Below are positions 1,725 through 24,353 of a stretch of DNA of 24,353 nucleotides, in pieces; the stretch's first letter is position 1, and every line of letters starts with the position of its first letter. The notes beneath the pieces were generated by a model that worked only from the letters and a program-made list of their open reading frames with translations, did not search any database and was not told where the DNA came from. A program made the translations under genes and the position numbers. Source of the stretch: a virus; IMG/VR virus record IMGVR_UViG_3300022169_000030, positions 1 to 24,353 of that record; one strand, given 5' to 3'.

Positions 1725-4112
1725 ATGAATATATATACTAACTCCAATAGTTCATTCCCTAGTCAAGTAGTTAGCGATGCTGAAAAGCAAAGTTTGGATT
1801 ACGGAACACAGGTTGGTCAAGCGATTGAATACGAATGGTTTGGTCAAGGTCGTACTAACGGTAATAGATATTTAACTAATTGGAATCAATTTCACCAATT
1901 AAGACTATACGCAAGAGGTGAACAATCAACACAAAAATCAAAAGATGAATTATCTATTAATGGTGATTTGTCTTATTTAAACCTTGACTGGAAGCCTGTA
2001 CCAATTTTATCTAAGTTTGTAGATATTGTTGTTAACGGTATATCGGCTAAGGCTTACGACATAAAAGCTTATGCTCAAGACCCATCGTCTATAAAGAAAA
2101 GAACCGATTACGCTTCTATGCTTTATGAAGACATGATAGCTAAAGAGTATTTAGATGGTCTTCAACAAACTTTAGGTATTAATCTGTACCAAACCTCAAA
2201 CCTTGATGTGGTACCTGAATCAAAAGACGAGTTAGAATTACATATGCAGCTAACTTATAAGCAATCTGTTGAGATTGCTGAAGAAGAAGCTATTAGTACT
2301 GTAATGGCTCAGAACAAATTTAATCTTACCAGACGAAGATTAAACATGGATTTAACAGTCTTAGGTATTGCAGCTACTAAAACAGGTTTTAATGAGGCTG
2401 AAGGTATTACGGTTGATTATGTAGATCCAGCTTATTTGGTTTATTCTTACACAGAAGATCCTAATTTTGATGACATATATTATGTTGGTGAAGTTAAAGC
2501 TATTACAATTCCAGAGCTTAAAAAAGAGTTTCCAGGAATTACAGATCAAGAGTTGCAAAGAATACAACAGATGCCTGGTAACAAGTCTTACACGACTGGC
2601 TGGGGAGATTATGACGAAAATACTGTTCAAGTATTATACTTTGAATACAAGACTTATTCTAATCAGGTATTTAAAATAAAGCAAACAGAGCAAGGATTGA
2701 TGAAGGCTTTAGAGAAGCCTGACACTTTTAATCCACCTGAGAACGACAACTTTGAAAGAGTTTCAAGATCTATTGAAGTACTTTATGACGGGGCTAAAGT
2801 TTTAGGAACTGATACAATGCTTAAATGGGAGCTAGCTGAGAATATGTCTAGACCAACAGCTGACACAACTAAGGTTGAGATGAATTACGGTATTGTTGCA
2901 CCTAGAATGTATAAAGGACGTATAGAATCAATTGTAAGCAAATGTATTGGATTTGCTGACATAATACAACTAACGCATTTAAAACTGCAACAGATATTAT
3001 CTAGAATGGTTCCAGATGGCGTCTATTTAGATATGGACGGATTAGCTGAGGTTGATCTTGGTAATGGAACTAATTACAATCCAGCGGAAGCATTAAACAT
3101 GTATTTCCAAACTGGTTCTATCGTAGGTAGATCACTTACTCAAGATGGAGATATGAATGCTGGTAAAGTTCCAATTCAAGAACTTAACAGCTCAAGTGGT
3201 CAAGGTAAGATACAAGCGCTTATACAAACGTATCAATATTATTTACAAATGATACGTGATGTCACGGGGTTAAACGAAGCTAGAGATGGTTCTGCTATGG
3301 ATAAAAATTCATTAGTAGGACTGCAAAAGATGGCTGCTAATGCATCTAACGTTGCAACTAGACATATCAAGCAATCTAGTTTATATTTGACCCTTAAAAT
3401 AGCAGAGAACATTGCTCTTAAAATAGCAGATGCTTTAGAATATCCTTTAACAAGGTCTTCTCTGCAAAACTCTATATCTACTTACAATATTAAAACGTTA
3501 GACGAAGTAGTTACATTGAACCTACATGATTTTGGTATATTCTTAGAATTAGAACCAGATGACGAAGAGGTTGCTCAGTTAGAAGCTAATATACAAGTTG
3601 CTTTACAACAAGGTGGTATTGACTTAGAAGATGCTATTGATTTAAGAAATATTAAAAATCTTAAATTAGCTAACCAAATGCTTAAGGTAAAACGTAAAGC
3701 AAAAGCTAAACAAGATCAAGCTAACCAGCAAGCTAATATTAAAGCTCAAGGTGATTCTCAAGCTGAAACAGCAGAGAAAACAGCAATGGCTGAAGTGCAG
3801 AAGCAAGAAGCTATTATGGGTGCAAACGTTCAATTTGAACAATCCAAGAATCAAATGGAGATTCAAAGAATGGAAATTGCAGCTCAATTAAAAGCTCAAG
3901 AAATGCAAACTAAGTTTCAGTTTGATATGCAGTTAAAGCAGTTAGATGTTCAGAACATACAAGAAAAAGAAACTAGAATAGAAGATAGAAAAGACCAACG
4001 TAGTAAAATAGAAGCTACACAACAAAGTCAGTTAATTAGTCAAAGACAAAACGACTCTTTACCTATAGACTTTGAAACCGAACCTGATCAAGGTATGGAA
4101 GCTTTCATGTAG
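1725..4112 (+). CDS. Portal protein with long Gln-rich C-terminal coiled coil
   Basis: This is the probable portal, the dodecameric ring through which DNA enters and leaves the capsid. It has 795 residues, long for a portal but similar to crAss-like portals. The support is its position between terminase and scaffold/capsid and a crAss-portal-like body: VPILSKFVDIVVNGISAKAY near residue 90, an EIAEEEAI helix near 185, and the DLTVLGIAATKTGF and EGITVDYVDPAYLVY segments around 205-240. From about residue 640 to 775 the chain becomes a Lys/Gln/Ala/Glu-rich probable coiled coil with almost no aromatic residues, and it ends in an acidic tail (ETEPDQGMEAFM). The start directly abuts the terminase stop and has no Shine-Dalgarno sequence. 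The stop is TAG. The function is inferred from context and resemblance. Confidence 0.88.
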   Translation: MNIYTNSNSSFPSQVVSDAEKQSLDYGTQVGQAIEYEWFGQGRTNGNRYLTNWNQFHQLRLYARGEQSTQKSKDELSINGDLSYLNLDWKPVPILSKFVDIVVNGISAKAYDIKAYAQDPSSIKKRTDYASMLYEDMIAKEYLDGLQQTLGINLYQTSNLDVVPESKDELELHMQLTYKQSVEIAEEEAISTVMAQNKFNLTRRRLNMDLTVLGIAATKTGFNEAEGITVDYVDPAYLVYSYTEDPNFDDIYYVGEVKAITIPELKKEFPGITDQELQRIQQMPGNKSYTTGWGDYDENTVQVLYFEYKTYSNQVFKIKQTEQGLMKALEKPDTFNPPENDNFERVSRSIEVLYDGAKVLGTDTMLKWELAENMSRPTADTTKVEMNYGIVAPRMYKGRIESIVSKCIGFADIIQLTHLKLQQILSRMVPDGVYLDMDGLAEVDLGNGTNYNPAEALNMYFQTGSIVGRSLTQDGDMNAGKVPIQELNSSSGQGKIQALIQTYQYYLQMIRDVTGLNEARDGSAMDKNSLVGLQKMAANASNVATRHIKQSSLYLTLKIAENIALKIADALEYPLTRSSLQNSISTYNIKTLDEVVTLNLHDFGIFLELEPDDEEVAQLEANIQVALQQGGIDLEDAIDLRNIKNLKLANQMLKVKRKAKAKQDQANQQANIKAQGDSQAETAEKTAMAEVQKQEAIMGANVQFEQSKNQMEIQRMEIAAQLKAQEMQTKFQFDMQLKQLDVQNIQEKETRIEDRKDQRSKIEATQQSQLISQRQNDSLPIDFETEPDQGMEAFM

Positions 4113-4121
4113 GAAGTAAAC

Positions 4122-4142
4122 AATTATTTAATTATATTATAT
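4122..4142 (+). repeat. 21-bp direct repeat, copy 1: putative promoter/leader of scaffold-capsid unit
   Basis: The sequence begins aattatttaattatattata and ends with one more t. It is identical, base for base, to positions 6889-6909. In both places it ends exactly one base before an ATG that opens a new unit. The flanking bases differ apart from a short agt a few bases upstream. The element is a plausible phage late promoter (a TATATT-like -10 would put the transcript start at or near the ATG) or an A/U-rich translation leader. Identity and spacing are directly visible; the role is inferred. Confidence 0.6.
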
Positions 4143-4143
4143 T

Positions 4144-5343
4144 ATGTCAGAAGTAAAAACAAATGAACCTGTTAAGCAGGAAGGTGAGTTTAAAGTTAAA
4201 AAGAAAACTCCAAAGAAGTTAACAACACAAAGCAGTGATCCTGTAGTTGTTAATATTAAAGAACCTTTAATAGAAATACCGCCATCTATAACAAAAGTTG
4301 TGGTACCTGCTGAAGAACCTAAACAAGAAGAAGATGCCATTCAAATCGGAGAAACAAAGAAAGTTCCTGTGGAAGAACCATCCGGAGATAGCGCTGCGGT
4401 GGGAGAACAAATACAAAAGCCCGTCGAAGATGTTAAAGAGTTTACACCAATCAAAGAGGTTGAAGTAGCTAAAGTTGAGGCAGAAGTTAAACAAGCTTTA
4501 AGAGATGAAAAAGTACTAGGTAAGCAATTACCTGAAAACATTGAAAAACTAGTTAGCTTCATGGAAGAAACTGGTGGGACAATTGAAGATTATACAAGGC
4601 TTAACGCCGACTACTCTAACATTGATGAAACAACATTATTAAAAGAGTATTACAAAAAAAATAAACCTTATTTAGATGATTCAGACGTAGAGCTTCTATT
4701 AGAAGATTTTGACTATGACGAAGATTTAGAGGAGGATAGAGATATACGCAAAAAGAAACTTGCGTTCAAAGAAGAAGTTGCAAAAGCTAAAGGTTATTTG
4801 GAGGAAACAAAGAGTAAATATTACGACGAGATCAAGTTGAGACCGGGCGTTACTCAAGACCAACAAAAAGCTACAGATTTTTTCAACCGATACAATGAGC
4901 AGCAGAAAGCAGCTGAGCAACAACATTCACAATTTCAAGAAAATACTAAAGAGCTTTTCAACGATGGTTTCGAAGGTTTCGATATCAAAGTCGGTGATAA
5001 GAACTACAAGTACAATATTCAAAATAGTGATAAAGTTGCAGAAAGCCAATCAAATATTAACAACCTAATCGGGAAGTTCCTAGATACAGAAGGTAATGTT
5101 AGTGACACGAAAGGTTATCACAAAGCTATGTACGCAGCTGACAACGTAGACAAGATCGCGTCTCATTTTTATGAGCAAGGAAAAGCCGATGCAGTTAAAG
5201 AAGTCGTAAACAATTCTAAAAACATGAGTGGCTCCAAAGCTAGGTCTACTCAAGGAGAAGTGTTTGTCGGTGGATTTAAAGTAAAAGCTATCACGGGAAC
5301 AGACTCTGCAAAATTGAAAATTAAAACAAGAAAATTTAACTAA
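4144..5343 (+). CDS. Probable head scaffolding protein
   Basis: This 399-residue protein lies directly upstream of the major capsid gene, the usual place for a scaffold. Its composition fits: about 115 N-terminal residues are disordered and rich in Lys, Glu, Pro and Val; a helical centre around residues 120-260 includes a very acidic patch (DFDYDEDLEEDRD, about residue 190) and a Gln/Glu-rich helix; the C-terminus is small and basic (KLKIKTRKFN). The last feature recalls scaffolds that bind capsid protein through a basic tail. I see no catalytic triad that would make it a fused maturation protease. The ATG follows the 21-bp repeat by one base, which supports this start. The stop is 12 bases from the capsid ATG, so the two genes are probably co-transcribed. 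The assignment rests on position and composition rather than a recognised domain. Confidence 0.7.
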   Translation: MSEVKTNEPVKQEGEFKVKKKTPKKLTTQSSDPVVVNIKEPLIEIPPSITKVVVPAEEPKQEEDAIQIGETKKVPVEEPSGDSAAVGEQIQKPVEDVKEFTPIKEVEVAKVEAEVKQALRDEKVLGKQLPENIEKLVSFMEETGGTIEDYTRLNADYSNIDETTLLKEYYKKNKPYLDDSDVELLLEDFDYDEDLEEDRDIRKKKLAFKEEVAKAKGYLEETKSKYYDEIKLRPGVTQDQQKATDFFNRYNEQQKAAEQQHSQFQENTKELFNDGFEGFDIKVGDKNYKYNIQNSDKVAESQSNINNLIGKFLDTEGNVSDTKGYHKAMYAADNVDKIASHFYEQGKADAVKEVVNNSKNMSGSKARSTQGEVFVGGFKVKAITGTDSAKLKIKTRKFN

Positions 5344-5355
5344 AAAAAACACATT

Positions 5356-6792
5356 ATGAGTGTATCACCACAATTTGGGAGTTTAATCCCATCTCAAACG
5401 CAGGCATTATTGTCTACGAATTATTTGCAATTTAACAGCGCCGCTGGCGGTGGAACTTTTGCACAACAGTATTTACCAGAAATCTATGAAGCAGAAGTAG
5501 AGCGTTACGGAAACAGAACTTTATCTGGATTCTTACGTATGGTAGGAGCTGAAATGCCTATGACTTCGGATCAAGTAATTTGGTCAGAACAAAATAGACT
5601 ACACGTATCTTACGATGGAGTTAGTCAAAGTAGTATTTTCCCAGGAACTACGTCTCGGATTGCAATCAATCCTGGAGCTGCTGCTGGAGTTTCAAACGTT
5701 ATTTCTCTTAATGACACTGTTGTTGTTTTAGATCCTGTAACTGGATTAGAAGCTAAAGGTGTTGTAACTGATACTGTTGTTGGAGCTGCTGGAACTATTG
5801 TCGTTCAGCCTTTTTCAAACGTAAATTTAGAAGATCAAGGATTTAGCCTTACTGGTTTAAAAGTGTTCGTTTACGGATCTACTTATGCTAAAGGATCTGA
5901 CACTGCACTTGCAGCTCAGGCTCGTATTAGTATTGAACCTGTACTTACTCAGTACTCTAACTCTCCAATCATTATCCGTAACCAATACGTAGTATCTGGT
6001 TCTGATATGGCACAAATCGGATGGGTTGAAGTTGCTACTGAAGACGGTACTTCTGGTTACTTATGGTATTTAAAAGCTGAATCTGAAACTCGTTTACGTT
6101 TTGAAGATTACTTAGAAATGTCTATGATTGAAAGTGAGTACGACCAGTCACAAGGTGCTGGAGAAGTTGCTCGCCCAGGAACTCAAGGTTTATTCTCTGC
6201 TATTGAAACTCGTGGAAATGTTGAAGTAGGATTTACTGCTGCAGCTGGACTTGACGAATTTGATAACATCCTTAAGAATTTAGATACTCAAGGTGCTATT
6301 GAAGAGAACATGTTGTTCTTACAAAGACAAACATCTCTTGATTTTGACGATATGCTAGCTGGCATCTCTGGTGGTTTCGCCGGTGGTACTGCTTTTGGTT
6401 TATTCGAGAACTCTGAAGAAATGGCTTTGAACTTAGGATTTAGCGGATTCCGTAGAGGATCTTACGATTTCTATAAGACTGACTGGAAATACTTAAATGA
6501 CGCATCTACTCGTGGAGGTCTTACAGGTATCAGTTCTGTTGAAGGTGTATTAGTACCAGCTGGAACTTCTACTGTTTACGATCAGATCTTAGGAACTAAC
6601 ATCCGTCGACCATTTTTACACGTACGATACAGAGCTTCACAGTCTGATGATCGTCGTATGAAGTCTTGGTTAACTGGTTCTGCTGGAGGAGCTTACACAT
6701 CAACTTTAGATGCTATGGAAGTAAACTTCTTATCTGAAAGATGTTTAGTAACTCAAGCTGCTAACAACTTTGTACTTTTCAAAGGAATCTAG
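5356..6792 (+). CDS. Major capsid protein
   Basis: This 478-residue protein is the probable HK97-fold shell subunit. Its position between the scaffold and a strong terminator fits, and segments such as GSDMAQIGWVEVATEDGT, GYLWYLKAESETRLRFEDYL and RRGSYDFYKTDWKYLND resemble major capsid proteins of crAss-like and related marine phages. The middle (about residues 130-190) is a Val/Gly/Thr-rich beta segment that could be an insertion domain. Codon use differs from the neighbours: of 22 arginines I count 16 CGN (12 CGT) and 6 AGA, whereas AGA dominates elsewhere. This fits a very highly expressed gene. There is an A-rich leader (aaaaaacacatt) and no Shine-Dalgarno. The gene ends in TAG, 15 bases before the terminator stem. 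No protease cleavage site is obvious. Confidence 0.9.
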   Translation: MSVSPQFGSLIPSQTQALLSTNYLQFNSAAGGGTFAQQYLPEIYEAEVERYGNRTLSGFLRMVGAEMPMTSDQVIWSEQNRLHVSYDGVSQSSIFPGTTSRIAINPGAAAGVSNVISLNDTVVVLDPVTGLEAKGVVTDTVVGAAGTIVVQPFSNVNLEDQGFSLTGLKVFVYGSTYAKGSDTALAAQARISIEPVLTQYSNSPIIIRNQYVVSGSDMAQIGWVEVATEDGTSGYLWYLKAESETRLRFEDYLEMSMIESEYDQSQGAGEVARPGTQGLFSAIETRGNVEVGFTAAAGLDEFDNILKNLDTQGAIEENMLFLQRQTSLDFDDMLAGISGGFAGGTAFGLFENSEEMALNLGFSGFRRGSYDFYKTDWKYLNDASTRGGLTGISSVEGVLVPAGTSTVYDQILGTNIRRPFLHVRYRASQSDDRRMKSWLTGSAGGAYTSTLDAMEVNFLSERCLVTQAANNFVLFKGI

Positions 6793-6807
6793 TAACATAT
6801 CAATAAC

Positions 6808-6835
6808 AATCCCTGCCTTCGGGTGGGGATTTTTT
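6808..6835 (+). terminator. Rho-independent terminator after capsid gene
   Basis: The left arm aatccctgcc (6808-6817) pairs with the right arm ggtggggatt (6822-6831) over 10 base pairs, two of them G-U. The loop is ttcg closed by C-G, the extra-stable UUCG tetraloop. Six T residues run from 6830 to 6835. It would stop transcription of the scaffold-capsid unit and protect the capsid mRNA 3' end. Confidence 0.93.
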
Positions 6836-6838
6836 ATA

Positions 6839-6880
6839 TGACATTAGCCCCTTACTATCTATATACTAAGGCTATTGTCA
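6839..6880 (+). repeat. Imperfect inverted repeat between terminator and next gene
   Basis: tgacattagcc (6839-6849) pairs with ggctattgtca (6870-6880), 10 of 11 positions with one T-T mismatch, around a 20-base A/T-rich loop. It lies between the terminator and the second 21-bp repeat, with agtttt shortly after. It could be an operator, a second weak terminator, or an RNA structure. The large loop argues against a strong terminator. Confidence 0.45.
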
Positions 6881-6888
6881 CAGTTTTA

Positions 6889-6909
6889 AATTATTTAATT
6901 ATATTATAT
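6889..6909 (+). repeat. 21-bp direct repeat, copy 2: putative promoter/leader
   Basis: This is a perfect copy of 4122-4142 and again ends one base before an ATG (6911). It follows the capsid terminator, where a new promoter would be needed to transcribe the neck and tail genes. That arrangement is the main argument that the element starts transcription. No other full copy was noticed in the window. Confidence 0.6.
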
Positions 6910-6910
6910 C

Positions 6911-7777
6911 ATGGCTAAAAAAGCTACAAACGCAGAAACAATCGAGGTTGCACCTCAGGAAGTAAAGGAAACAATAATCAATAAAATTAATTATCCTGAA
7001 TCAACTGTTGCGAAAAAAACAACAGTTCAACAACAAACAAAACCTGAATGGGAAATAAAGGCACGTACTTATTATCTTAAAGGTAATAACAATCCCTTAA
7101 CTCTAACTATTCCAGCTAGACATACTAGAAAACACTCATTACTATATTTTGACAAGCAAAATGGTAAGCAACGTGAAATTAGGTATGCTACAAATCAAGA
7201 TAGTCCTTTAGTCGATGAACAAAAAGGGGAAGCTACACTAGGGCATGTTAGATTTCATGACGGTACATTAATAGTTCCTGTTGAAAAACAGAACTTACAA
7301 AAATTATTATCATTATATCACCCTTTAAAAGGTAGGATATATGAAGAGTTCAGTGCAGTTGCAGTTGCTGAAGATGAACTAGACGTTTTAGATCTTCAAA
7401 TCGATGCTTTAAACGCAGCTAGATCAATGGATGTAGATCAATCAGAGGCAATATTAAGAGTTGAACTAGGATCTAAAGTTAACTCAATGAGTTCTAAAGA
7501 GCTTAGAAGAGATCTTTTATTATTTGCTAGAAAAAACCCTGCATTATTTATAAACTTAGCTAACGATGAAAATGTTATGCTAAGAAACTTTGCTATTAGA
7601 GCACAGGAAATTGGTATTATTAAACTATCACAAGATCAAAGAACATTTACATGGGGATCAAACGGTAGAAAATTAATGAATGTACCATTTGATGAAAATC
7701 CTTACTCAGCATTTGCGGCTTTCTTAAAGACAGACGAAGGTGTTGAAATCTATAAGTCTATAGATAAAAAACTATAA
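6911..7777 (+). CDS. Conserved phage protein of unknown function, head/neck region
   Basis: This is a 288-residue protein whose function I cannot name. The first 45 residues are Lys/Thr/Gln-rich and probably disordered. A compact part follows at about 48-140 (TYYLKGNNNPLTLTIPARHT, LLYFDKQNGKQREIRYATNQ, VRFHDGTLIVPVEKQNLQKL). This is a beta-rich pattern with a leucine-rich helix, of a type often encoded next to capsid genes in marine phages. The C-terminal half (about 150-288) is mostly helical and includes MSSKELRRDLLLFARKNPAL. It follows the capsid terminator and carries its own copy of the 21-bp element, so it may be expressed at a different level or time from the capsid protein. A minor head, head-completion or assembly role is possible from position only. 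Confidence 0.75.
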   Translation: MAKKATNAETIEVAPQEVKETIINKINYPESTVAKKTTVQQQTKPEWEIKARTYYLKGNNNPLTLTIPARHTRKHSLLYFDKQNGKQREIRYATNQDSPLVDEQKGEATLGHVRFHDGTLIVPVEKQNLQKLLSLYHPLKGRIYEEFSAVAVAEDELDVLDLQIDALNAARSMDVDQSEAILRVELGSKVNSMSSKELRRDLLLFARKNPALFINLANDENVMLRNFAIRAQEIGIIKLSQDQRTFTWGSNGRKLMNVPFDENPYSAFAAFLKTDEGVEIYKSIDKKL

Positions 7778-9822: not shown

Positions 9823-12800
9823 ATGGCTAAAGTTACTAATACTTTTATAAAGAATAAATTAAACCAAGACTTAGACGCTAGGTTACTTCCAAACGGAGAA
9901 TACAGAAACGCTTTAAATATTCAGGTTAGTAAATCTGAAGGTGCGAACGTAGGTTCTTTAGAGAACGTGTTAGGTAATATCAAAGTAAAAGATTTTGAAG
10001 TTTTAACGGGTGTTGATGATTTAATTTGTATTGGTTTTTTAACCGACGAATTTAACAACACTATATATTTATTCTTAACAGACAACCCTAAGTCAACTGA
10101 TTTAAACCCAGAGGCTTACAAGCCAACAGCAAACAACTTTATATTCTCTTATGACACATTGCTTGACGACGCTGACAATACAACTTTATTAGTTGAAGGC
10201 GCTTGGCTAAACTTTTCAAAAAACTTTCCAATTACAGGTGTTAATATTTTAGAAGGTTTATTATTTTGGACTGATAACAGAAATCAACCAAGAAAAATAG
10301 ATACTACTAAAGCAAACCCTAGTCGATTAGCAAATCCAACACACTATATATCTGAAGATCAAGTGTCAGTTGCGAAGTACAACCCATACGATCCAATCCA
10401 AACATGGAAAAAATCTACGGATCCAGATTCTGGAACTTGGGCGGTTCCTTATGAATCAACTATGAAAGATGTTAGCAGTAAGTTTATGCCAAACGGTGGA
10501 TCTGCTGATGTAGTAGGAGCTTACTTAGGCGGAAATAATAATATTCCAATTTCAACAGTAAAAGGAGATATTCAGTTTACGGGTTCAAATGCTTACGATA
10601 CAAATTCAACCATTTCCTATATAAACCCTAGCACAGGAGAATTAGTTTCAACAGGGCTTTTAGTAAGTAACTACAACACTAGTGTAGATCCACCTGAGAT
10701 AATTACAACAGCAACTATACTTGACCCTATGCCTGCTTTATCTAGTGGTACAGAGTTAATATTTAACGCAAACCCTTATTACGAGTACTTATTTGCAGGA
10801 GATCCTGATTACTTAGAAGATAGATTTGTGCGTTTTAGTTATAGATATAAGTTTGAAGATGGAGAATATTCTATATTTGCCCCATTTACGCAGATTGCTT
10901 TTATACCAAAGCAAGATGGTTATTTTTTATTTACAAACAAAGAAGGTATACCTGAAAAAGACGATCAAAGTAATACTTATAGAAGTACTATTGTTTCTTT
11001 TATGGAGAACAAGGTGGATGATATTGAACTAAGAGTTCCTTTACCCACTGGTTACACTGGAGCAGATATAAGTGAAGGATTAAAGATAACTAAGATAGAC
11101 ATTCTTTACAAAGAGTCTGATGCTTTAGCTGTAAAAGTAGTTGATACAATTAACGTAGAGGACATGGTATTTGTAGAAGATTATTTTTCTTACCAATATG
11201 AGTCTAAAAAACCATTCAAAACACTACCTTCAAAAGACTTAATAAGAGTTTATGATGTAACACCGGTTAAAGCTTTATCTCAAGAGATAATCAGCAATAG
11301 ACTTGTTTATGCAAACTTTCAAGATAAACACACTCCACCAGACACAATAAACTATAGCGTAAACGTTGGAGCTAAAAAACCATTTAATTTACAAAATGGT
11401 ACGGCTATTGCAGACTTTCAGTCAGATACTACCACGATACAGATATCGGGTAAAACTGGAACTATTTTAGTTGGTAGTATAATTACTAATTTATTGTCAG
11501 GCGGAAACCCTGTAGCTGTCACTGTTGTAGATACTCTTTTTAGTGAAATTACAGTAAGTGGTCCAGTAACTATTACTCAAGGCCAAACATTGATATTTGA
11601 AGCCGCTGCAGACGACACACAGTACACGAGCACTATAGAAAGCCCTAACCATAGTGTTAAACAAAATAGAAACTATCAGGTAGGTATTGTTTTATCTGAC
11701 AGATTTGGAAGACAATCTTCTGTTGTAATATCTAATGATTCAACTTTAACAATAGAAGGGGGTGATGAATTTGGAACCTCAACTATATATTCTCCATACC
11801 AAACAACAGCTGTAGAGCAGAATGAATGGCCAGGAGATTCGCTTAAGCTTTTATTTAACGATCCTATTGGACCAGCAAATCCAAACACCACAACTGGTTG
11901 GCCTGGTATATATAATGGAGATATAACAAGTCTTAGTTATAATCCTTTGGGATGGTATAGTTACAAAATTGTAGTTAAACAAACAGAGCAAGAATATTAC
12001 AACGTTTATTTGCCTGGAATTATGGCAGCATACCCAGAGAGTACTACATTGGAAATAGGTAATACATCTCATGCAGTTTTAATTAATGACAATATAAACA
12101 AAGTACCTAGAGATTTAACTGAAGTTGGACCAGATCAAAAGCAGTTTAGAAGTTCAGTGAGGTTATTTGGTAGAGTAGAGAATACGTCTACAGAGATTTT
12201 GTACACTGGAACAAGACCTACCAATATTGGGTTATCAAATGATCAATACTTTCCAGGAAGAGAGTCTGACACGGTGTCAACAATATCTACATTAAACGAC
12301 TTGTTTAATTATGATCCTAATGATCCACCACGTCCAGATTACTTTCCTCAGCTTTATACGTTTCTATCAAATCCTTTAATAGCTAGGATTAGTACTGATG
12401 ATAAAATAGGTCAGATAGCTACAACTAATTTTGATATAGCTAGCGCTATAGTAGACGCTGACGTTTCGAACAGTACTAACGTTGTGTTGAAAAACGTTAC
12501 TGGAATTCCAGTTTCGGATATGGTTGTTTTTGGAGGTGGATTACCCGCCGACTCTACCGTGGGTTCTTATAATCCTGCAATTTTTACATTGATTTTAAAC
12601 GATGCTGTTACTTTAAAAGCAGATGATGTTCTAGCTTTTGCTCAAGGTTTTCCAACCCCAAACCAAGGGACTATAATAGAACCAGGTATTCAGCATTTAG
12701 CCATATATGAAACAGAACCAGTAGAGTCTGAATTAGATATATTTTGGGAAAGTTCTACAGCTGGATTGGTTAATGACTTAAACTACTTAATACTAAACAC

Positions 12801-14043
12801 TACTGGAGCAGGAGCAACATTTAGCTCATTCAATACTAATGACTGGGACGAGACAATTAATTGGACACCTCTACTTACAGCTAATATATTAACTAATGAT
12901 TTTACTCTATTAGACAACTTTGGTCAACCTGTTGATGTTTTTACTTTAACAATGACTAGCGTAAAGAATAGCGTACTACCAAACGGTGTGGATGTTTCTC
13001 AGTATTTTGAGCTCTTTGAAACACCAACCCCAAACTTCTACAACATTAGAGTAACTGAAGATTATTGGGATAACATATACTTTAATAGCATAGCTACTCT
13101 AAGAAACTTTACTTTTAGTTTTGTAAGCGTAGTTGATACAGTGTCTACTCCATTTTTAGAGATTGGTAACCCTAATAACATAGCTCCAAGTATACTACCT
13201 TTTCCAGGTAGCGGGGAAGTATGTGGTGGACTTATATACGCTAGTAGAAACCAGGAAAGCATTACAACTAAGTGGGGTATAAATGGAGCAGGTAATGACG
13301 AACTTAGAAATAGAGATTTAAACTGGGAAATCACCTCTCAAACAGATGAGGGTGGGAATCCAGTAGATCCAAATAACCCGTTTACTATAGATGCTGACGC
13401 TCTTGGTTTTGGTACTCTTTTAGGTACTCCGGATTTTGTTAGTCAAGTAGTTCTTCAAAACTTACCAGCAAATCAAAGTAAACCAGCTGGAAGATATTCT
13501 GTAACACTACAACTTACAGATCCAGGTGCGTCAGTGGAATGCGTTGTAAATATTGAACAAAGAGTGACTTCGTCTGTTCCTACTTGGAGAGGGTTAACTG
13601 TTTACGGTGAAAACCTTGCGGCTTCTCAATTTGATCCTGAGTATTTTAATTGTGAGGGTATTTACTTTAAAGTAGACGCAAACAATTTTGGCGCAAGAGT
13701 CGGGTGGTATTATTATATTTACAGTTTAGGAAATTCACCTGACTCAAACATTTCAAATCCAAGCACATATCAAACCGCCGCTTTAGCCAGCACTGTAAGT
13801 CAAGGTTCAATAGGTATATTCAAAAACGCATCAAGTTCTTTAACTGGAACTACTTTAGGAGCAGGAGATTGGCTTTTTAGCAATGCAACAGCGGAGTTTG
13901 GAACAGGTTCTGCTCAAGAGTTTTTTAAAGACGCTGTTGAAAATAGAGTTTTTCCATCTCAACCAAACTATGATCCTGCGGATGTTGATGCGGGTGTCAC
14001 TCAAAACGCACCTTTTACACCAGATTCAGTAGAATTTATATAA
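9823..14043 (+). CDS. Tail stabilisation (muzzle-type) protein, N-terminal part, with adhesin-like beta insertions
   Basis: This 1,406-residue protein begins with a segment typical of crAss-like stabilisation/tail proteins: KNKLNQDLDARLLPNGEYRN followed by ALNIQVSKSEGANVGSLENV. Further family-like segments are EGLLFWTDNRNQPRKIDTTK (about residue 145) and LAIYETEPVESELDIFWESS (about 965). Two similar beta modules of about 60 residues lie at 536-595 and 883-942. From about 1,030 the chain is rich in Asn, Thr and Pro with a cadherin/Ig-like look (LPNGVDVSQYFELFETPTPN), and it could be surface exposed or receptor binding. The expected C-terminal part of the family (YFNSF onwards) is absent and is encoded by the next gene in the same frame. 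The protein would form the short tail tube and mouth. Family resemblance is strong over the N-terminus; the insertion domains are tentative. Confidence 0.8.
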   Translation: MAKVTNTFIKNKLNQDLDARLLPNGEYRNALNIQVSKSEGANVGSLENVLGNIKVKDFEVLTGVDDLICIGFLTDEFNNTIYLFLTDNPKSTDLNPEAYKPTANNFIFSYDTLLDDADNTTLLVEGAWLNFSKNFPITGVNILEGLLFWTDNRNQPRKIDTTKANPSRLANPTHYISEDQVSVAKYNPYDPIQTWKKSTDPDSGTWAVPYESTMKDVSSKFMPNGGSADVVGAYLGGNNNIPISTVKGDIQFTGSNAYDTNSTISYINPSTGELVSTGLLVSNYNTSVDPPEIITTATILDPMPALSSGTELIFNANPYYEYLFAGDPDYLEDRFVRFSYRYKFEDGEYSIFAPFTQIAFIPKQDGYFLFTNKEGIPEKDDQSNTYRSTIVSFMENKVDDIELRVPLPTGYTGADISEGLKITKIDILYKESDALAVKVVDTINVEDMVFVEDYFSYQYESKKPFKTLPSKDLIRVYDVTPVKALSQEIISNRLVYANFQDKHTPPDTINYSVNVGAKKPFNLQNGTAIADFQSDTTTIQISGKTGTILVGSIITNLLSGGNPVAVTVVDTLFSEITVSGPVTITQGQTLIFEAAADDTQYTSTIESPNHSVKQNRNYQVGIVLSDRFGRQSSVVISNDSTLTIEGGDEFGTSTIYSPYQTTAVEQNEWPGDSLKLLFNDPIGPANPNTTTGWPGIYNGDITSLSYNPLGWYSYKIVVKQTEQEYYNVYLPGIMAAYPESTTLEIGNTSHAVLINDNINKVPRDLTEVGPDQKQFRSSVRLFGRVENTSTEILYTGTRPTNIGLSNDQYFPGRESDTVSTISTLNDLFNYDPNDPPRPDYFPQLYTFLSNPLIARISTDDKIGQIATTNFDIASAIVDADVSNSTNVVLKNVTGIPVSDMVVFGGGLPADSTVGSYNPAIFTLILNDAVTLKADDVLAFAQGFPTPNQGTIIEPGIQHLAIYETEPVESELDIFWESSTAGLVNDLNYLILNTTGAGATFSSFNTNDWDETINWTPLLTANILTNDFTLLDNFGQPVDVFTLTMTSVKNSVLPNGVDVSQYFELFETPTPNFYNIRVTEDYWDNIYFNSIATLRNFTFSFVSVVDTVSTPFLEIGNPNNIAPSILPFPGSGEVCGGLIYASRNQESITTKWGINGAGNDELRNRDLNWEITSQTDEGGNPVDPNNPFTIDADALGFGTLLGTPDFVSQVVLQNLPANQSKPAGRYSVTLQLTDPGASVECVVNIEQRVTSSVPTWRGLTVYGENLAASQFDPEYFNCEGIYFKVDANNFGARVGWYYYIYSLGNSPDSNISNPSTYQTAALASTVSQGSIGIFKNASSSLTGTTLGAGDWLFSNATAEFGTGSAQEFFKDAVENRVFPSQPNYDPADVDAGVTQNAPFTPDSVEFI

Positions 14044-14082: not shown

Positions 14083-15588
14083 ATGGGAGCAGTAGTAGAA
14101 GTTAAATATTTTAACAGCTTTGTGTTAAAGAAAACCATCCAAGATGAGAAACAACCTATTTGGAACGGTTCATTTGGCATACCCCAAGAAAACGGAGGTT
14201 ACCCAGTGGTTTCAGATACATCAGAGGCTAACAACTGGGCTATTGAAGAAGCTAGAATACGAGGCGGATATAACAACACTAACGTTGATTATGGAGTTAA
14301 AGCGTACCTGGTTGAAGAGGAACCAAATTCGTCTATAAGATTTAATTCTCTAATATGGTCTGGAATATTTAATTCTAGAACAGGTATAAATAACACAAAC
14401 GTATTTTCAACAGGAACTAGCATAACTAAAAGTGCAGATCCAGCAGATGGTTCTATTCAAAAGCTTTACGCAGAAGATACCAACTTGGTAATATTTCAAG
14501 AAAGAAAAGTTAGTAGAGCTTTAATTGACAAAGATGCAATTTATTCAGCAGAAGGAACTAGTAGTATAACATCGACTAATTTAGTTGTAGGAGTTATACA
14601 ACCTTACGCTGGTAGGTTTGGAATAAGTAGAAACCCTGAGAGCTTTGCTGTTTATGGTTTTAACAAGTTCTTTTCAGATAAAAACAATAATGTAATACTT
14701 AGGTTAGGTCAAAACGGGATAACTGAAATATCAGCTTCTGGTATGAAAGATTATTTTAGAGATCAACTAAACGCTATAGATAGCACTGGAGGAGTAGAAG
14801 GTTATGTCAGAGGTGGTTATGATATTTACAATAATAAGTACATAGTATCAACTCAACAAAATATTGCAAACCCAACGTATAACACCTTGTCTTGGAGTGA
14901 TTCTATTGGCGGTTGGACAAGCTTTTTTAGCTATCGTCCAGATCAATTGTTTAGTATAAGAAATAATTTTTATACAGTTCAAGACGGAAGTTTATATAGA
15001 CATCACGATAACACCGTTAACAGAGGGCAGTTTTATGGAGTAGACACACCTAGTCTTATAACTTTTATATTTAATCCAAGTCCCACGCTTTCAAAAACTT
15101 TTAAAACAGTTTCTTACGAAGGTAGTAACGGCTGGAAAGTTATTTCATTTGCGTCAGATGGTACGGGTCAAGACTTTGACTTACCAAACAATAATTGGGT
15201 AGTTAATCAAGACGAGACTACAATACCAGGAAATTTAGATTTATACTCACCAACATCGGTACATAGTTATCTAGAAGGTGAATATGTTATTAACCCAGCT
15301 AATGGCCAACCAGTAATTAGACAAGATTATTTAGCTACATTTGGAACTATAAGACCTGCTTTGAATAAAGAGTACGCTGGTTTTAATAGAAAAGAAAATA
15401 GCTACGCTTCTAACCTAGTTAACTACAGCACTCCAGAGGATGGTGAGGTTGTATATGGCGAACAAATTGCCGGCATTAAAGGTTATTATTCAACAGTAAC
15501 TTTTTTAACTGATGCCGTTACAAACGTTGGAGCTGAGAAACAATTATTTGCAGTTAGCTCTGAGTTTACTCAAAACAATGGTTATTAA
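14083..15588 (+). CDS. Tail stabilisation protein, C-terminal part
   Basis: This 501-residue protein reads like the back half of crAss-like stabilisation proteins. VKYFNSFVLKKTIQDEKQ near the start corresponds to the family's YFN-F segment. IRFNSLIWSGIFNSRTGINN (about residue 85), DGSIQKLYAEDTNLVIFQER (about 125), KDAIYSAEGTSSITSTNLVV and RFGISRNPESFAVYGFNKFF follow in the expected order. The rest is beta-rich and ends in a Tyr/Asn/Gly-rich tail. It probably assembles with the preceding 1,406-residue product in the short tail. The start is set by the two stop codons upstream in the same frame. The stop overlaps the next ATG by one base (TAATG). Whether relatives encode one protein or two decides if this is a recent split. 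Confidence 0.8.
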   Translation: MGAVVEVKYFNSFVLKKTIQDEKQPIWNGSFGIPQENGGYPVVSDTSEANNWAIEEARIRGGYNNTNVDYGVKAYLVEEEPNSSIRFNSLIWSGIFNSRTGINNTNVFSTGTSITKSADPADGSIQKLYAEDTNLVIFQERKVSRALIDKDAIYSAEGTSSITSTNLVVGVIQPYAGRFGISRNPESFAVYGFNKFFSDKNNNVILRLGQNGITEISASGMKDYFRDQLNAIDSTGGVEGYVRGGYDIYNNKYIVSTQQNIANPTYNTLSWSDSIGGWTSFFSYRPDQLFSIRNNFYTVQDGSLYRHHDNTVNRGQFYGVDTPSLITFIFNPSPTLSKTFKTVSYEGSNGWKVISFASDGTGQDFDLPNNNWVVNQDETTIPGNLDLYSPTSVHSYLEGEYVINPANGQPVIRQDYLATFGTIRPALNKEYAGFNRKENSYASNLVNYSTPEDGEVVYGEQIAGIKGYYSTVTFLTDAVTNVGAEKQLFAVSSEFTQNNGY

Positions 15589-17838: not shown

Positions 17839-20800
17839 ATGACATTACTAGAATACGTACAATCACTTCAAGATCAAGGCGCAACAGACATACCTGATAA
17901 AGTTCAAGAATGGAAAAAGAAAAACCAACCCAAAGTTGAAAAAGAGGTAATTAAAACACCTGTTAAACAAGCAAAGACAGAAGTTGTTGTGGAGAAGGAT
18001 GCGACTGCAGCAACAACCCCGGTAGCATCCGAGAGTTTAAGTTCTGGAAGTGGCGAGCCTACTTTTACTTCAATGTACGACGAAGACGCAACAGCTAGTC
18101 AAGGACTTGATATAATAAATCAAAGAGCTTTAAGATTAAAAGCTGAAAAAGACTTTGATGCGGACGTGGGCGGCGTTAAAACTAAAGCTATATTAAGTAA
18201 ACTACCCTTAGGTTCTAAACAAAGAGCTGACTACTACATAAGTAGGGGTTTCGAAGCAGACGATACTATAAGTAAAAGTTATTACGATAGAGCTTCAGGC
18301 TACGTAGCTCCTAATAGTTTTTTAATAGACGAGGGTGAAGCTGAAGAGGAGTTTAGTCTTTCAGCTCCTAAAACAGAAATACCTTCAGAGTCTCAAGAGT
18401 TAAAAGGTTCAGATCAAATAATTGATTTTAAAGGTCCTAGCGACCCTTTAGGTTTGGACGAGCCTAAAAAACAAGTTCCAGACACTTTTTTTGAAGATTT
18501 AACTAAAGAGTTTGAGTCTGAAAAAGAACGCGGAACTGGTACAACGGAAGGTTTTATAGATGGTTTTATATTAGAAAACGATTTAGATTTAGAATATGAA
18601 AATTTATATTTTAATAAAGAAAAATCAACTAAGTTTGTAGATGATTTTTACGGTGGCGCTGACGCTTTAAAAGAGTTCGGAGTTAACGCCGTTGATTTTG
18701 AGGGTTTTTTAAACAGAAATGGCTATGCTGATGATTACCTAAATAATCTAAAAGAAGGAGAGTACGAAGATACTTCTATATATGGTAAAGACAATAAGTT
18801 AGCCGAAGAAAGGCATTTAAGAAAGTATTTAAACTTATATGTAAACCGTCAAGACTATAAAGCAAATCAACTTAATAAGTTAGAGAAGATAAAAAAAGAT
18901 CCTAAATTTAAAACTTCTACTTTTGGTAACGCTAGGAGCAGTGTCTTAAACGCTATTAGTAAGGTTGAAGAATCAAATATATATCTTACTACTGTAGATC
19001 AACAAAAACAAAAGGATTATTTAAAATCTAAATTTACACTATCTACCGCGAAGGACAAAGAGTATGCTAAAGCTAAAATAGATTACGCAAAAGAATTAGA
19101 TCAAAGAGGGGATTGGTACGCGGCAGCTGCTAATACGGGATCTTTTTTAGCTGAAGGTGGTGAAGGTTTTTTAACAGGAATGCGAGATCTTGTAAACTTT
19201 GGTTTAGATATAACTGGATTTGACTTAGCTGTAGATAAAGATAGAAATTATCAAGCTGAAGAGCAGTTAGCTAAAGACTCTTCTTATTTCACTAGTATAA
19301 CGGATGCTAAAACAATAACTAAAGATGGTATTGAATACGCTAAAGACTCTAAGGGTAATATATACAATGTATCGGCTGGATATAATGTTAGTGGCGTAAT
19401 AACAGGTTTGCAGTTAGAAAGTTTAGACAAAGAGATAGAATCTAAAGGCGTAAAAAAGAACCACACTTCTTTAAGAGGTTATTTGACGGTTGGAGGTAAT
19501 GTTACTGGAAATGTTTTAAGTCAGGTTGTTGGTCAAAAAGGATTTGGAGCTGTAACAAAAGCTGCTAAACTAAGAACACTAGCCTCAGTTAACGGTTTTA
19601 AAAGCGTAAAAGATTATAAGAACATGGTTAATCTTTCTAAAGCTATAGGAGGAAAAGCAAAACCATCTTTTAGAATTCCAGTTAAAAAATCAACAGTAGA
19701 TGCAATGCTTTTTCAAGGGTCTTATGGAGGTGCTATAGGTTATAACAATACTTTAGCTCAAGCAAAATCCGCTGGATTCAATGATGCCGACGCTGAAGCT
19801 TTAGCTTATGACGCCGGTCAATACATGGCTGTTTGGTATGCGGCTACAGGACCTGTTAGTGATAGAACAACCTGGTTAGATAAAGTTGGAGGAAATTTAG
19901 CTGTTAAAAAAATTATTTCCAATGCTTTATCTAAAACTAGAAAAGGTAATGTAAAGAACTTTTCACAGTCTTTAAAAAATCAATTAACAAATTTAAGTTA
20001 CAAGCTAAAGTCTAAAGGATATGATTTTGCTAAAGAAGGTGGTAAAGAGACTTTACAGGAAAACCTACAGCAATCAGGTGAATTTCTTTGGATAAATCCT
20101 AAATTAAACACTAAAGCCAAGGCTAACTTCTTACAAGATACATACAGTAATGACGAAATTATTTCTACTTCTGTTTTGTCTTTTGCTACAGGAGGTTTGC
20201 TATCTCAGATTAAAGTACCTAGTTTTAAGCCTAACGCAAGTGCGCAAATAGCCAACTACACTTATATAGCTAAAAACTCAGCAAAAGCAGAACTAGAACT
20301 TGACAGGTTAGTGAATAGTGGGTTTGCAACTCAAGAGGAGGCTGACCAAATAATGTTTAACTCTAAAGCTATATTAAATCAATCGCCTAAGATACCTAAA
20401 TGGTTAAGTGGTGACTACGTGTTAAACGTTGCTCAATTAATGCAGCAAAAACAAGATTTAGAAAATCAAAAAAAATCTACAGCTCCTTCTTTTCATGGTC
20501 CTTTAGATGATGATATAGAAAACTTAGATTTAGAAATAGACGCGCTTATAAGACAATCAGCTGACGAAAAAAGAACGCAACTACAGAAGGGTGTTAGTAC
20601 TTTTGTTGATGCAGTAGCTAAAGCTAGCGATAAAGAGGTTGATATACAGAATTTTGAAACCACTTCTGAGGCCAACGCTTATAGGCAAGAGTTAGAGGAT
20701 AAAGGAGCTAATGTTTACCAATCTCAAGGCTATGGAGATTTTGTTTTAGACGACAAGACTGGAGATATAACAATAATAATAGACGATCAAGTTAACACAG

Positions 20801-23800
20801 AGGATAATGTAGTAACCACTGAGGTACATGAAGGAGGTCATCTTTTAGTTTCAGCAACTGTGAAAAAAGATCCTAAAGCAGCGGCTAAACTTGGTAGTAG
20901 TCTTTTACAAGAGTTAGCTGATAATTCTAATATAGAAATAAAAAACGACAAAGTAGCAAAGCGAATAGCTCAATATATAGCCGATGGCGACAGTACAGCG
21001 GTGGTGATGGAGGAAGTAATGATGTTTACAAGCGAAGCGTTAATTGATGGCGACATAGTTTTTAACGAAACAGCTTCTACCAAAATAGGTGATCTTATTA
21101 GAAGAACTCTACAAAACGTTTTTGGGATTAAAGTTAAATTTAAAGACGGTAAATCTGTTATTAATTTTTTAAGAGATTACAACAAAACAATTGAATCTGG
21201 GAAAGCCTCAAAAGGATTAGTTAGAACAGCTATTGAAGGATCAAAAGTCACTATAAAAGACTCTGATGTTGATGCTGCTAAGAAAATAGGTAGAACAGAG
21301 GTTGTTGTAAACGAAGAAACGGGTGTTGCAGAAGACGTTGAAGTAAAACCTGTAGTTGAAGAAGAATCATCTAGAGCTAGTAAAAGAGACACAGGTGTTG
21401 AAGCTTCTGCTAAAGTACAAGAAATATACGATGCACAAGGTGAAGCTGGAGCTTTTGATATTATAGATCAATTCAAGCCTATAGTAAATAGAATAGTAGA
21501 AAAAAGAAGAGACGCGCCTAATTTTGATCGTCAGTTGTTAACTGATGAAATTGAAACAGGTAAGCGTGGAATATTCGATTTAATTAGAGAATACAAACCT
21601 GAATCAGGCGTGCCATTAGCCGCTTATATAAATAAGTTTTTACCAGCTAGAGCAATTGAAGCCTCTAAAAGAGTTTTAGGTGAAGAGTTTACTAGTGATG
21701 TTACAGAAGCTAAAGGCGTTATGGCAGAAGAAGTGACAACTGAAGTTGCTGCTAAACCTGTTACTAGAAAAATAAAGCCAAGCTCGTTTATTTCTAACGA
21801 AGCTGTCACTAAAATTAAAGAGCAAGTACAGGAGAAGATTAAAGGCATCGATCCTAAAAATCTAACGTTTAAAAAACTTGGTGACTTAGCTCCTGAAATT
21901 ATTGCACAAGAACTTGGTATACCAGTTAAAAAACTAACTAGTCCAACGGCTAACCTATCAAAAGGTGATGCTACAGCTATTCAGCAGTTTGTCAATAAGA
22001 ACGCAGATAAATTATTAAAGATATTACCTGAAGGGGCAGTAGTAGAAGCTGCAACAGACAAGCTCTTAGGTACGTCTACTGGCGTGCCAAAAGGATTACT
22101 TAATGCTTTTTATACTAAACAAGCTAGATTAGGTAAAGGCGCTGGACTTGCTCCGTTTAAATTAAACAAAGGAATTAGCAAAGCTGATTTCTTAGAAACG
22201 TTTGGTATTGTTGAAGGTAAAAAAGCTGAAGGATTTGACGCTAGATCACCACAAGCTCAAGCTTTAAAAGGTATTGCAAGTTTATACGGTAAGTTAGTTA
22301 CAAACGAAATTGTAAGATCTGACACAGATTTAAGTTTAGAAGATAAGCAAGATGTTGCAGCTGGAAAGAACAAAGCTATGGCTAGTAAGCGAACACAGAA
22401 GCTGAACTGGAAAGAAACAGATGAAGCTATAGTGGCTTCTTTTAAAATAGGTGATAGAACTTATAAAACAACTTTAGAAGAAACCGCTTTCATGGAATTT
22501 GACGAAGGTCAAACCTACCAGGACATAGAGGATGTAGCTAAAGATTTAGATATACTTGAAGACGCAGAAGGAAACCCGATAGAAAGTTCTGAGAATTTTT
22601 ACCATTTAGAGTTCGGAGATACTGAGCTTGGAAAAGGTATAACAGGTAAAGGTAACGCTTTTGAAGTGTTTACCACTACTATGAACGGTGTTGTAGATTA
22701 CTTAAAAGCTAATCCAAGAATAGAGGGCGTTGTTTTTACAGCTAAAGAACCTAGTAGAATTAGATTATATAAAACTCTAAGCCAAGTATTAGCTGGTAAG
22801 CTTAATGGCAGCTCTGGTTTTAAAAACGACACTTTTATTGTGTCAACTAAACCTGCAACGGTTAGCAAGCCAAAGTCTATGGCTAGTAAGCGTGTAACCA
22901 AGGAGCAAAAAAGTAAAGGCATAAAAGATCAAATCCATCAAGATTCTGGTAAAAGTTTAGTATCTAAAACCGTAGATTTATTAACAAGAAAAGATGGTGT
23001 AGCCGCGGGGTTTGGAAACGCATCACTACCATTTATAATAACTCCATTTAATCTATCATCTGGTGGTAATTCTGCGAGACGCGGCTATGTAGCCATAACA
23101 GACGCTAGTTTAACTAGAGACAAAGATCGGGTTAAGACTGAAAAAGCATTAAAAGAAGGTGAAGTTTTTGACTTAAGAAAAGTAAGAAGTAAAGTAACTG
23201 ATTTAGGTTTATCTAATTTAGGACCTCAATTTACTACTGACCAATTAAAAGAAATGAGTCTAGTTACTAAAGGCGGTAGTAGATCTTCTATAGCTAGAAA
23301 TAAAGAGAAAGTTAAAGCTTTAATTAACGGTAAAAATTCTTTTTACGACGGTTTTTATAGAGCTTATGATGCAAATCCTGAGGCTAATTTACCTGGATTA
23401 AAGCAAATAATATATCCAGCAGATCAATCTTCAAACGCTACATTAGGTAGAAAAATAGCTACAGCAGTTAATGATTCTAATAAAGGAGATAAAGTACCAT
23501 ACTTAGAGCATTGGTTTCCATATGGACAATGGGCTTTAACTACTATTTCTACTTTTGATATGCCTCAAGCCTCTAGAAATGCCTGGAAAAAATGGGCTAA
23601 TGAACATTATTATCAAGAGAATATAAGTTCACAAACTCAAACAGCGGTAGACAAAACATACACGGTAAAATTAGAAGATGGTACAGGAGTTTCTTGGAAG
23701 TCTAAAGATCAAAACCATCCGCTTCTTGAAAAGCAATTGAGCAAGTTTAGAGAAACAGGAGATGTTAAGTATTTAGATAAAGCTAGTAGACTTTCAGATA

Positions 23801-24353
23801 TAAGAAAATACCCTGGAGTACACACTGAGGTTAATCCATTTGTCCACGGTAGATATAACGTCACTGACGCAGCTAAGTATGGAATAAAAGTTTCTCCAAG
23901 CTTGGAATCTAATTTAGAGGTGCAACACGAAGCTAGTGCTATTATACATGAGGTTATAGTTGGTAATATAACAGAGGTTGAGGCTCAAGAAAGAATAGAA
24001 GCTTTTATTTCTATAGCTCCTGGAAAGTCAATGGCTTCAAAACGTGACAGCGATTTAATTCCTGACGCTATAAAGTACGACAGACCTATAACTGTACAGA
24101 CGGCTATAAACGCTTTAGAAAAAACTGATAAAGCTTTAGAACTTGCTAGAAAATTAGACCAACCTGTTAAGAAGATTAGAGTATTTGATTTTGATGATAC
24201 ATTGGCTAGAACTAAAAGCAATGTGTTATACACAATGCCTGATGGAACTACTGGAGCTATTGATGCTGCTACATTTGCTAAAGAAGCAGGTAACATGGAA
24301 GCAGAAGGAGCTCAATGGGATTTCTCTGAGTTTAGTAAAGTAATGCAAGGAAG
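17839..24353 (+). CDS. Giant polyvalent (multidomain) virion protein, 3' end beyond window
   Basis: The frame stays open to the window end, giving at least 2,171 residues. The ATG lies five bases after the previous stop, with no Shine-Dalgarno. Order of parts: charged, proline-containing N-terminus (1-250); helical part (250-420); Gly/Ala-rich part with FATGGLLSQ (425-800); metallopeptidase-like part with HEGGH at 997-1001 and a likely third ligand in MEEVMM (1057-1062); possible sigma-region-2-like helices (1192-1285; GVPLAAYINKFLPARAIEAS); helical part (1300-1510); GNAT-like part (1535-1672; GKGNAFEVF, EPSRIRLYKTL); unknown part (1700-2050); start of a HAD-like domain (VFDFDDTLA, 2115-2123). 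RASKR (1179-1183) and MASKR (1514, 1681, 2065) lie between the modules. It is probably packaged and injected, with the parts acting on the host. The domain calls range from strong (HAD, zincin motif) to weak (sigma, GNAT). Confidence 0.85.
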   Translation, partial: MTLLEYVQSLQDQGATDIPDKVQEWKKKNQPKVEKEVIKTPVKQAKTEVVVEKDATAATTPVASESLSSGSGEPTFTSMYDEDATASQGLDIINQRALRLKAEKDFDADVGGVKTKAILSKLPLGSKQRADYYISRGFEADDTISKSYYDRASGYVAPNSFLIDEGEAEEEFSLSAPKTEIPSESQELKGSDQIIDFKGPSDPLGLDEPKKQVPDTFFEDLTKEFESEKERGTGTTEGFIDGFILENDLDLEYENLYFNKEKSTKFVDDFYGGADALKEFGVNAVDFEGFLNRNGYADDYLNNLKEGEYEDTSIYGKDNKLAEERHLRKYLNLYVNRQDYKANQLNKLEKIKKDPKFKTSTFGNARSSVLNAISKVEESNIYLTTVDQQKQKDYLKSKFTLSTAKDKEYAKAKIDYAKELDQRGDWYAAAANTGSFLAEGGEGFLTGMRDLVNFGLDITGFDLAVDKDRNYQAEEQLAKDSSYFTSITDAKTITKDGIEYAKDSKGNIYNVSAGYNVSGVITGLQLESLDKEIESKGVKKNHTSLRGYLTVGGNVTGNVLSQVVGQKGFGAVTKAAKLRTLASVNGFKSVKDYKNMVNLSKAIGGKAKPSFRIPVKKSTVDAMLFQGSYGGAIGYNNTLAQAKSAGFNDADAEALAYDAGQYMAVWYAATGPVSDRTTWLDKVGGNLAVKKIISNALSKTRKGNVKNFSQSLKNQLTNLSYKLKSKGYDFAKEGGKETLQENLQQSGEFLWINPKLNTKAKANFLQDTYSNDEIISTSVLSFATGGLLSQIKVPSFKPNASAQIANYTYIAKNSAKAELELDRLVNSGFATQEEADQIMFNSKAILNQSPKIPKWLSGDYVLNVAQLMQQKQDLENQKKSTAPSFHGPLDDDIENLDLEIDALIRQSADEKRTQLQKGVSTFVDAVAKASDKEVDIQNFETTSEANAYRQELEDKGANVYQSQGYGDFVLDDKTGDITIIIDDQVNTEDNVVTTEVHEGGHLLVSATVKKDPKAAAKLGSSLLQELADNSNIEIKNDKVAKRIAQYIADGDSTAVVMEEVMMFTSEALIDGDIVFNETASTKIGDLIRRTLQNVFGIKVKFKDGKSVINFLRDYNKTIESGKASKGLVRTAIEGSKVTIKDSDVDAAKKIGRTEVVVNEETGVAEDVEVKPVVEEESSRASKRDTGVEASAKVQEIYDAQGEAGAFDIIDQFKPIVNRIVEKRRDAPNFDRQLLTDEIETGKRGIFDLIREYKPESGVPLAAYINKFLPARAIEASKRVLGEEFTSDVTEAKGVMAEEVTTEVAAKPVTRKIKPSSFISNEAVTKIKEQVQEKIKGIDPKNLTFKKLGDLAPEIIAQELGIPVKKLTSPTANLSKGDATAIQQFVNKNADKLLKILPEGAVVEAATDKLLGTSTGVPKGLLNAFYTKQARLGKGAGLAPFKLNKGISKADFLETFGIVEGKKAEGFDARSPQAQALKGIASLYGKLVTNEIVRSDTDLSLEDKQDVAAGKNKAMASKRTQKLNWKETDEAIVASFKIGDRTYKTTLEETAFMEFDEGQTYQDIEDVAKDLDILEDAEGNPIESSENFYHLEFGDTELGKGITGKGNAFEVFTTTMNGVVDYLKANPRIEGVVFTAKEPSRIRLYKTLSQVLAGKLNGSSGFKNDTFIVSTKPATVSKPKSMASKRVTKEQKSKGIKDQIHQDSGKSLVSKTVDLLTRKDGVAAGFGNASLPFIITPFNLSSGGNSARRGYVAITDASLTRDKDRVKTEKALKEGEVFDLRKVRSKVTDLGLSNLGPQFTTDQLKEMSLVTKGGSRSSIARNKEKVKALINGKNSFYDGFYRAYDANPEANLPGLKQIIYPADQSSNATLGRKIATAVNDSNKGDKVPYLEHWFPYGQWALTTISTFDMPQASRNAWKKWANEHYYQENISSQTQTAVDKTYTVKLEDGTGVSWKSKDQNHPLLEKQLSKFRETGDVKYLDKASRLSDIRKYPGVHTEVNPFVHGRYNVTDAAKYGIKVSPSLESNLEVQHEASAIIHEVIVGNITEVEAQERIEAFISIAPGKSMASKRDSDLIPDAIKYDRPITVQTAINALEKTDKALELARKLDQPVKKIRVFDFDDTLARTKSNVLYTMPDGTTGAIDAATFAKEAGNMEAEGAQWDFSEFSKVMQG

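Follow-up and report, generated by a model that had tools for sequence, protein, structure and literature searches.

A start-codon-anchored 21-bp element at two capsid-flanking sites in an uncultured phage clade: a candidate late promoter

Why should a viral contig carry the same 21 letters twice, each time exactly one base before a start codon and on either side of its capsid gene? The 24.4-kb contig concerned (the window, meaning the whole stretch of DNA analysed) encodes terminase, portal, putative scaffold, capsid, neck and tail genes, and the features around the repeat are all on its + strand. The first copy of the AT-only element AATTATTTAATTATATTATAT, copy S (4122-4142), lies in a 31-bp gap directly downstream of the portal gene (1725-4112; phrog_6547, E 3.4e-134) and opens a unit whose first member is the putative scaffold gene (4144-5343, 399 aa), so labelled from its position between portal and capsid, the protein having no PHROG match. 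The major capsid protein gene that follows (5356-6792, 478 aa; phrog_13704, E 1.9e-88) has no copy at its own start. The second copy, P (6889-6909), is situated between the capsid terminator and a 288-aa post-capsid gene of unknown function (6911-7777; phrog_34748, E 1e-24), which it opens. A reading of the sequence alone had reported an identical 21-bp pair with differing flanks, and this is confirmed: the preceding base is C (4121) at copy S and A (6888) at copy P, and the copies are followed by T and the scaffold ATG (4143-4146, ATG from 4144) and by C and the post-capsid ATG (6910-6913, ATG from 6911), respectively.

The same reading held that a chance match was very unlikely, which is correct in direction, although from the window alone the match is not astronomically so. 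The repeat is the longest exact direct repeat in the window (21 nt), and no third copy occurs there on either strand with up to three mismatches (shuffled sequences give 0.05). Across 300 third-order Markov surrogates, the longest repeat typically measured 15 nt and never exceeded 20 nt, a length reached once, so that in a genome this rich in A and T the window by itself lends moderate support, and it is conservation among relatives that settles the matter. The element persists, always at the same two sites, across phages whose capsid proteins are as little as about 53% identical, and these comparative data refute the notion of a chance repeat, the probability of which is now negligible.

The comparative picture derives from an exact AATTATTTAATTATATTATAT scan over 2.9 million viral contigs, the counts being those among the matches listed. 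Every one of the 147 exact copies among these matches, in which some contigs are represented more than once, has an ATG exactly one base downstream. Allowing up to three mismatches, 202 distinct near-copies among the matches listed divide into 96 before the scaffold family, 96 before the post-capsid family, and ten that mostly fall at contig ends, short ORFs or shifted sites. The search for further copies suggested by the sequence-only reading thus returned the same two genes and no copies inside genes, rather than many copies elsewhere. The element was present at 121 of 122 scaffold (S) sites and 114 of 115 post-capsid (P) sites scored, and the distinct capsids of its bearers form a single clade (support 0.85). 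Among 50 records of about 47-69 kb that carry the sigma gene described below, all 43 pattern matches are at the two capsid-flanking sites, the reversed pattern giving two matches in the same records; in two near-complete genomes the only strong position-weight-matrix sites are these two. Position profiles are near-invariant from -22 to the ATG with little conservation further upstream, and distant members have a diverged element that retains an ATG-anchored core, TATTNTATYATG. AATTATTTAATTATATTATAT is, then, a conserved element of one uncultured phage clade. Neither this clade-wide distribution nor the sigma factor could be seen in the window, and the sequence-only reading names neither. The hosts of the clade are probably marine Bacteroidota, as its sister phages include cultured Flavobacterium phages. 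No description of the motif was found in the literature searched, and one elsewhere is possible. The few outliers are of different kinds: locus L044 has a low-scoring S site, where a near-copy opens only a 54-aa frame, the P site of L304 contains an insertion, and L079 is a borderline variant.

A direct repeat that brackets a gene unit might also mark a boundary of recombination or module exchange around scaffold and capsid, and the position and identity of the two copies in the window are what this idea would predict. In distant members, however, copy S and copy P are no longer identical, yet each is still anchored to its ATG, a pattern explained by selection on function and not by homogenisation. 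This origin is therefore considered very improbable.

The end of the scaffold-capsid unit bears on what that function might be. The strong terminator that had been claimed to close the unit is indeed present, as an intrinsic-terminator-like hairpin with a 10-bp stem followed by a T run (6808-6831), upstream of copy P. Terminator-like structures recur in the capsid/post-capsid gap of 81 of 115 clade members, against a shuffled expectation of 1.0, in a test that allows G-U pairs and includes a shuffle control; a stricter earlier test undercounted them (24/114). Because the terminator precedes copy P, a new transcription start is needed there.

A second line of evidence comes from the sister clade, in which the place of the element is taken by a promoter box of the host type. 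TAHNTTTG is a known Bacteroidetes -7 promoter element (PMC6847099), and it is found at 61 of 70 scaffold sites in the sister clade, where the element is absent, compared with 2 of 122 sites scored near scaffold starts in the element clade. The named sister genomes, those of Flavobacterium phage elemo (MT497065) and of ctfjg026 (MW202828), show a TAHHTTTG box upstream of each of the two genes, scaffold and post-capsid. A further 80 sister loci mostly have the box ahead of the scaffold gene, again with no element there, and their post-capsid site usually has a terminator without a box. The difference extends beyond these two sites, as host-type boxes occur at 10/25, 10/22 and 7/22 gapped starts in three sister genomes and at 0/9, 0/23, 3/34 and 0/18 in the element clade. 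The distance from box to ATG varies in the sister clade, from -38 to -23, whereas the spacing of the element is near-fixed. The element is thus comparable to Bacteroidetes sigma-ABfr promoters (-7 element TANNTTTG) in its position upstream of the scaffold gene; it differs in that the -7 element is absent from its 21 bp, which contain no TTTG, and in that it is found where the host-type box is lost.

Where would transcription begin if the element were a promoter? Bacterial polymerases usually prefer a pyrimidine at -1 and a purine at +1. The base between element and ATG is T or C, and never a purine, at all 235 sites (121 S and 114 P), even though T/C changes at this base number at least 12 and 23 on the tree. 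Other late starts have a purine at -1 in 105 of 167 cases; capsid starts also favour T (93 T, 29 A and 2 C), so that the pyrimidine rule is suggestive rather than proof. With the A of the ATG taken as the first base of the RNA, ATTATATT would occupy -13 to -6, and there is no conservation at -35. A promoter is argued for by the pyrimidine at -1, the position of the most conserved block, at the place expected of a -10 box, and the near-invariant spacing to the ATG, together with the replacement of the host-type box of the sister phages.

It is accordingly proposed, as a model, that the 21-bp element and the next base (-22 to -1 relative to the start codon) constitute a phage-specific late promoter. 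Host core RNA polymerase, most likely with a phage sigma-70-family factor, would open the DNA over TTATATT, and RNA would start at or within 1-2 bases of the A of the ATG (4144 for the scaffold gene, 6911 for the post-capsid unit), so that the messages would have no leader or almost none. From copy S, scaffold and capsid would be transcribed up to the terminator, and copy P would restart transcription for the neck and tail genes that follow. Judged from sequence comparison, the element is very likely a promoter; given that, a start at or next to the ATG is likely, and reading by a phage sigma is fairly likely. The combined model of a late promoter, most likely sigma-read and starting at or beside the ATG, is on balance favoured. 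The label 'late' would follow from gene content only. With regard to the sequence-only reading, its promoter branch, with TATATT as the -10, fits best, given an element confined to two genes and sister phages that have a host-type box at its place; its leaderless messages are retained as a prediction.

The other branch of that reading was a shared translation enhancer, that is, a leader in transcripts starting upstream whose RNA word recruits ribosomes in place of a Shine-Dalgarno sequence. The near-fixed distance to the ATG would suit such a role, as would the A that is always present at -3, since A at this position promotes initiation in Flavobacterium johnsoniae (PMC6847099). A is also favourable at -6, yet 95% of elements have T there. 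No copy precedes the capsid gene, where enhanced translation should be most needed, or any late gene of the window besides the two; this counts against a general translation enhancer and leaves it the weaker branch. Moreover, the element takes the place of the sister phages' promoter box and at site P comes after a terminator, and a translational role would not require the loss of a host-type promoter. A leader function of this kind is regarded as improbable.

A candidate reader of such a promoter is encoded by the phages themselves. The early genes of two element-bearing records include a 252-aa protein of the sigma-70 family (Sigma70_r2 and phrog_351 matches) with a conserved domain 2 and a C-terminus resembling domain 4; when superposed on a solved sigma-70 domain 2, the predicted domain 2 aligns over 98 residues at 2.3 A (Z 12.8). 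The gene is present in every element-clade record of the first set that reaches the early module, and a scan recovered it in at least 80 contigs. Of the 50 sigma-bearing records, 49 hold the capsid gene and these carry the element, while the sigma gene was found in none of 21 sister records, several of which are 54-65 kb long. The window, a 24-kb fragment, is too short to include the gene, and its possession of a sigma is extrapolated from relatives, the sigma-bearing record with the closest capsid (G026) being 80% identical in that protein. As the element-bearing capsids form one lineage, the association of sigma and element amounts to effectively one evolutionary event. Two records that might have passed for exceptions with an element and no sigma were set aside as truncated: in G002 the search showed no early module, and the sequence of G003 stops shortly before the ERF gene, on its upstream side.

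The sigma sequence had no match in isolate phage records, so the search yielded no cultured phage that carries it. In genome contigs there were seven matches (L441-L447), in metagenome-assembled genomes of unrelated phyla, with labels that include Aliivibrio, Halieaceae, Ilumatobacteraceae, Saprospiraceae and a gammaproteobacterium; these are probably phage contigs that were binned into the wrong genomes. Record G021 (IMGVR_UViG_3300047157_000162, 129.5 kb; loci L214 and L219) carries the sigma gene twice and the pair of element sites twice. It looks like two related phage genomes joined, and one of the sigma frame matches contains stops. The clade phages also encode GroEL and GroES-like chaperonins of their own (L206:14041-14646 and L206:9431-10984).

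The assignment of the sigma to the late element is complicated by a second clade-specific, promoter-like motif, TTACAAAC..AATACGA-N10-GATAATATA, which precedes early genes with a leader of variable length. There are 7-12 copies in each of three genomes of the clade and none in three sister genomes; an example is the early region of L205 (6421-14164, - strand), and the motif is likewise found in the early regions of sigma-bearing relatives. The sigma might read this early class instead, as its bipartite layout suits a protein with domains 2 and 4, whereas in the late element no -35 is conserved. The late promoter, with its start near the ATG, would then be read by a phage RNA polymerase, from the virion or otherwise, or by the host polymerase with another phage factor. 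Two promoter-like classes with only one sigma found are compatible with that arrangement, and phiKZ-type virion polymerases typically use promoters that are long, AT-rich and strictly conserved, for example AAATATATATTAT-(6N)-G in AR9 (PMC5312081). In several genomes, however, the sigma gene itself lies behind an early-class motif, which suggests that this class is readable before any sigma has been made. Nor is there a phage RNA polymerase among the families listed; a search with PF00940 (T7-like polymerase) gave no match in 25 records, nor in any control genome. A reader other than the sigma is thus rather unlikely, though it merits more weight than a translational leader, and the sigma-read late promoter is preferred. 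A k-mer search for a further late class turned up no obvious promoter-like motif in the late region. It is possible, though somewhat less likely than not, that the clade has abandoned host-type promoters for a private two-class system, with bipartite early promoters and a sigma-dependent late system of two promoters fused to the start codon and yielding leaderless messages.

How would such a system compare with those already described? The closest analogies are to late promoters read by phage sigma factors in T4 and phiEco32, from which the element would differ in sequence, in the number of sites and in its start-codon register. The late promoters of T4, read by the sigma-family protein gp55, likewise serve late structural genes, are followed by AT-rich DNA and lack a conserved -35; their AT-only box lies about one helical turn ahead of the base where transcription begins (PMC2988020), a place that ATTATATT would share if RNA started at the A of the ATG. 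A sigma-family factor encoded by the phage, one mark of the T4 late type, is present in clade members with a predicted fold that matches sigma domain 2, its binding to the element being putative. T4, on the other hand, has an 8-bp box that recurs about 50 times, with gp33 taking the part of sigma domain 4, whereas the element clade has about 22 conserved bp at two sites, a sigma with a predicted domain 4 and the ATG in register. The podoviruses phiEco32 and 7-11 resemble the element clade, as modelled here, in having a phage sigma with few, strongly conserved phage-specific promoters and in carrying structural genes on one strand and early genes on the other (PMC4331800). They differ in consensus (TAATGTATA; TGTGATGTTATA) and infect enterobacteria, and no start-codon register is reported in the available part of that source (PMC4331800). 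The promoters of phiKZ-type virion RNA polymerases (AR9, phiKZ) are also long, AT-only and strictly conserved (PMC5312081); these serve early genes of jumbo phages, whereas the element precedes late capsid genes, and near-complete records of its phages measure about 60 kb.

If the model is true, it would describe a natural promoter in fixed register with the start codon in Bacteroidota. Mapped transcripts of this phylum mostly carry leaders; in Flavobacterium johnsoniae most mapped messages have leaders longer than 10 nt (PMC6847099). It would also supply a concrete predicted pair of promoter and reader for a widespread uncultured phage clade, and so compact a two-promoter sigma system could be of use as an expression tool and as a marker for these phages in metagenomes. 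A 21-base repeat spotted by eye can, it seems, lead to a regulon.

Two further features of the window were noted downstream of these genes. A giant frame (17839-24351, more than 2171 aa), which runs off the end of the contig, has no Pfam or PHROG match. The muzzle-type tail protein of crAss-like phages is split over two adjacent genes (9823-14043 and 14083-15588), which match PF25731 and PF25729 and both match phrog_14478; at the corresponding position, elemo has one long ORF.
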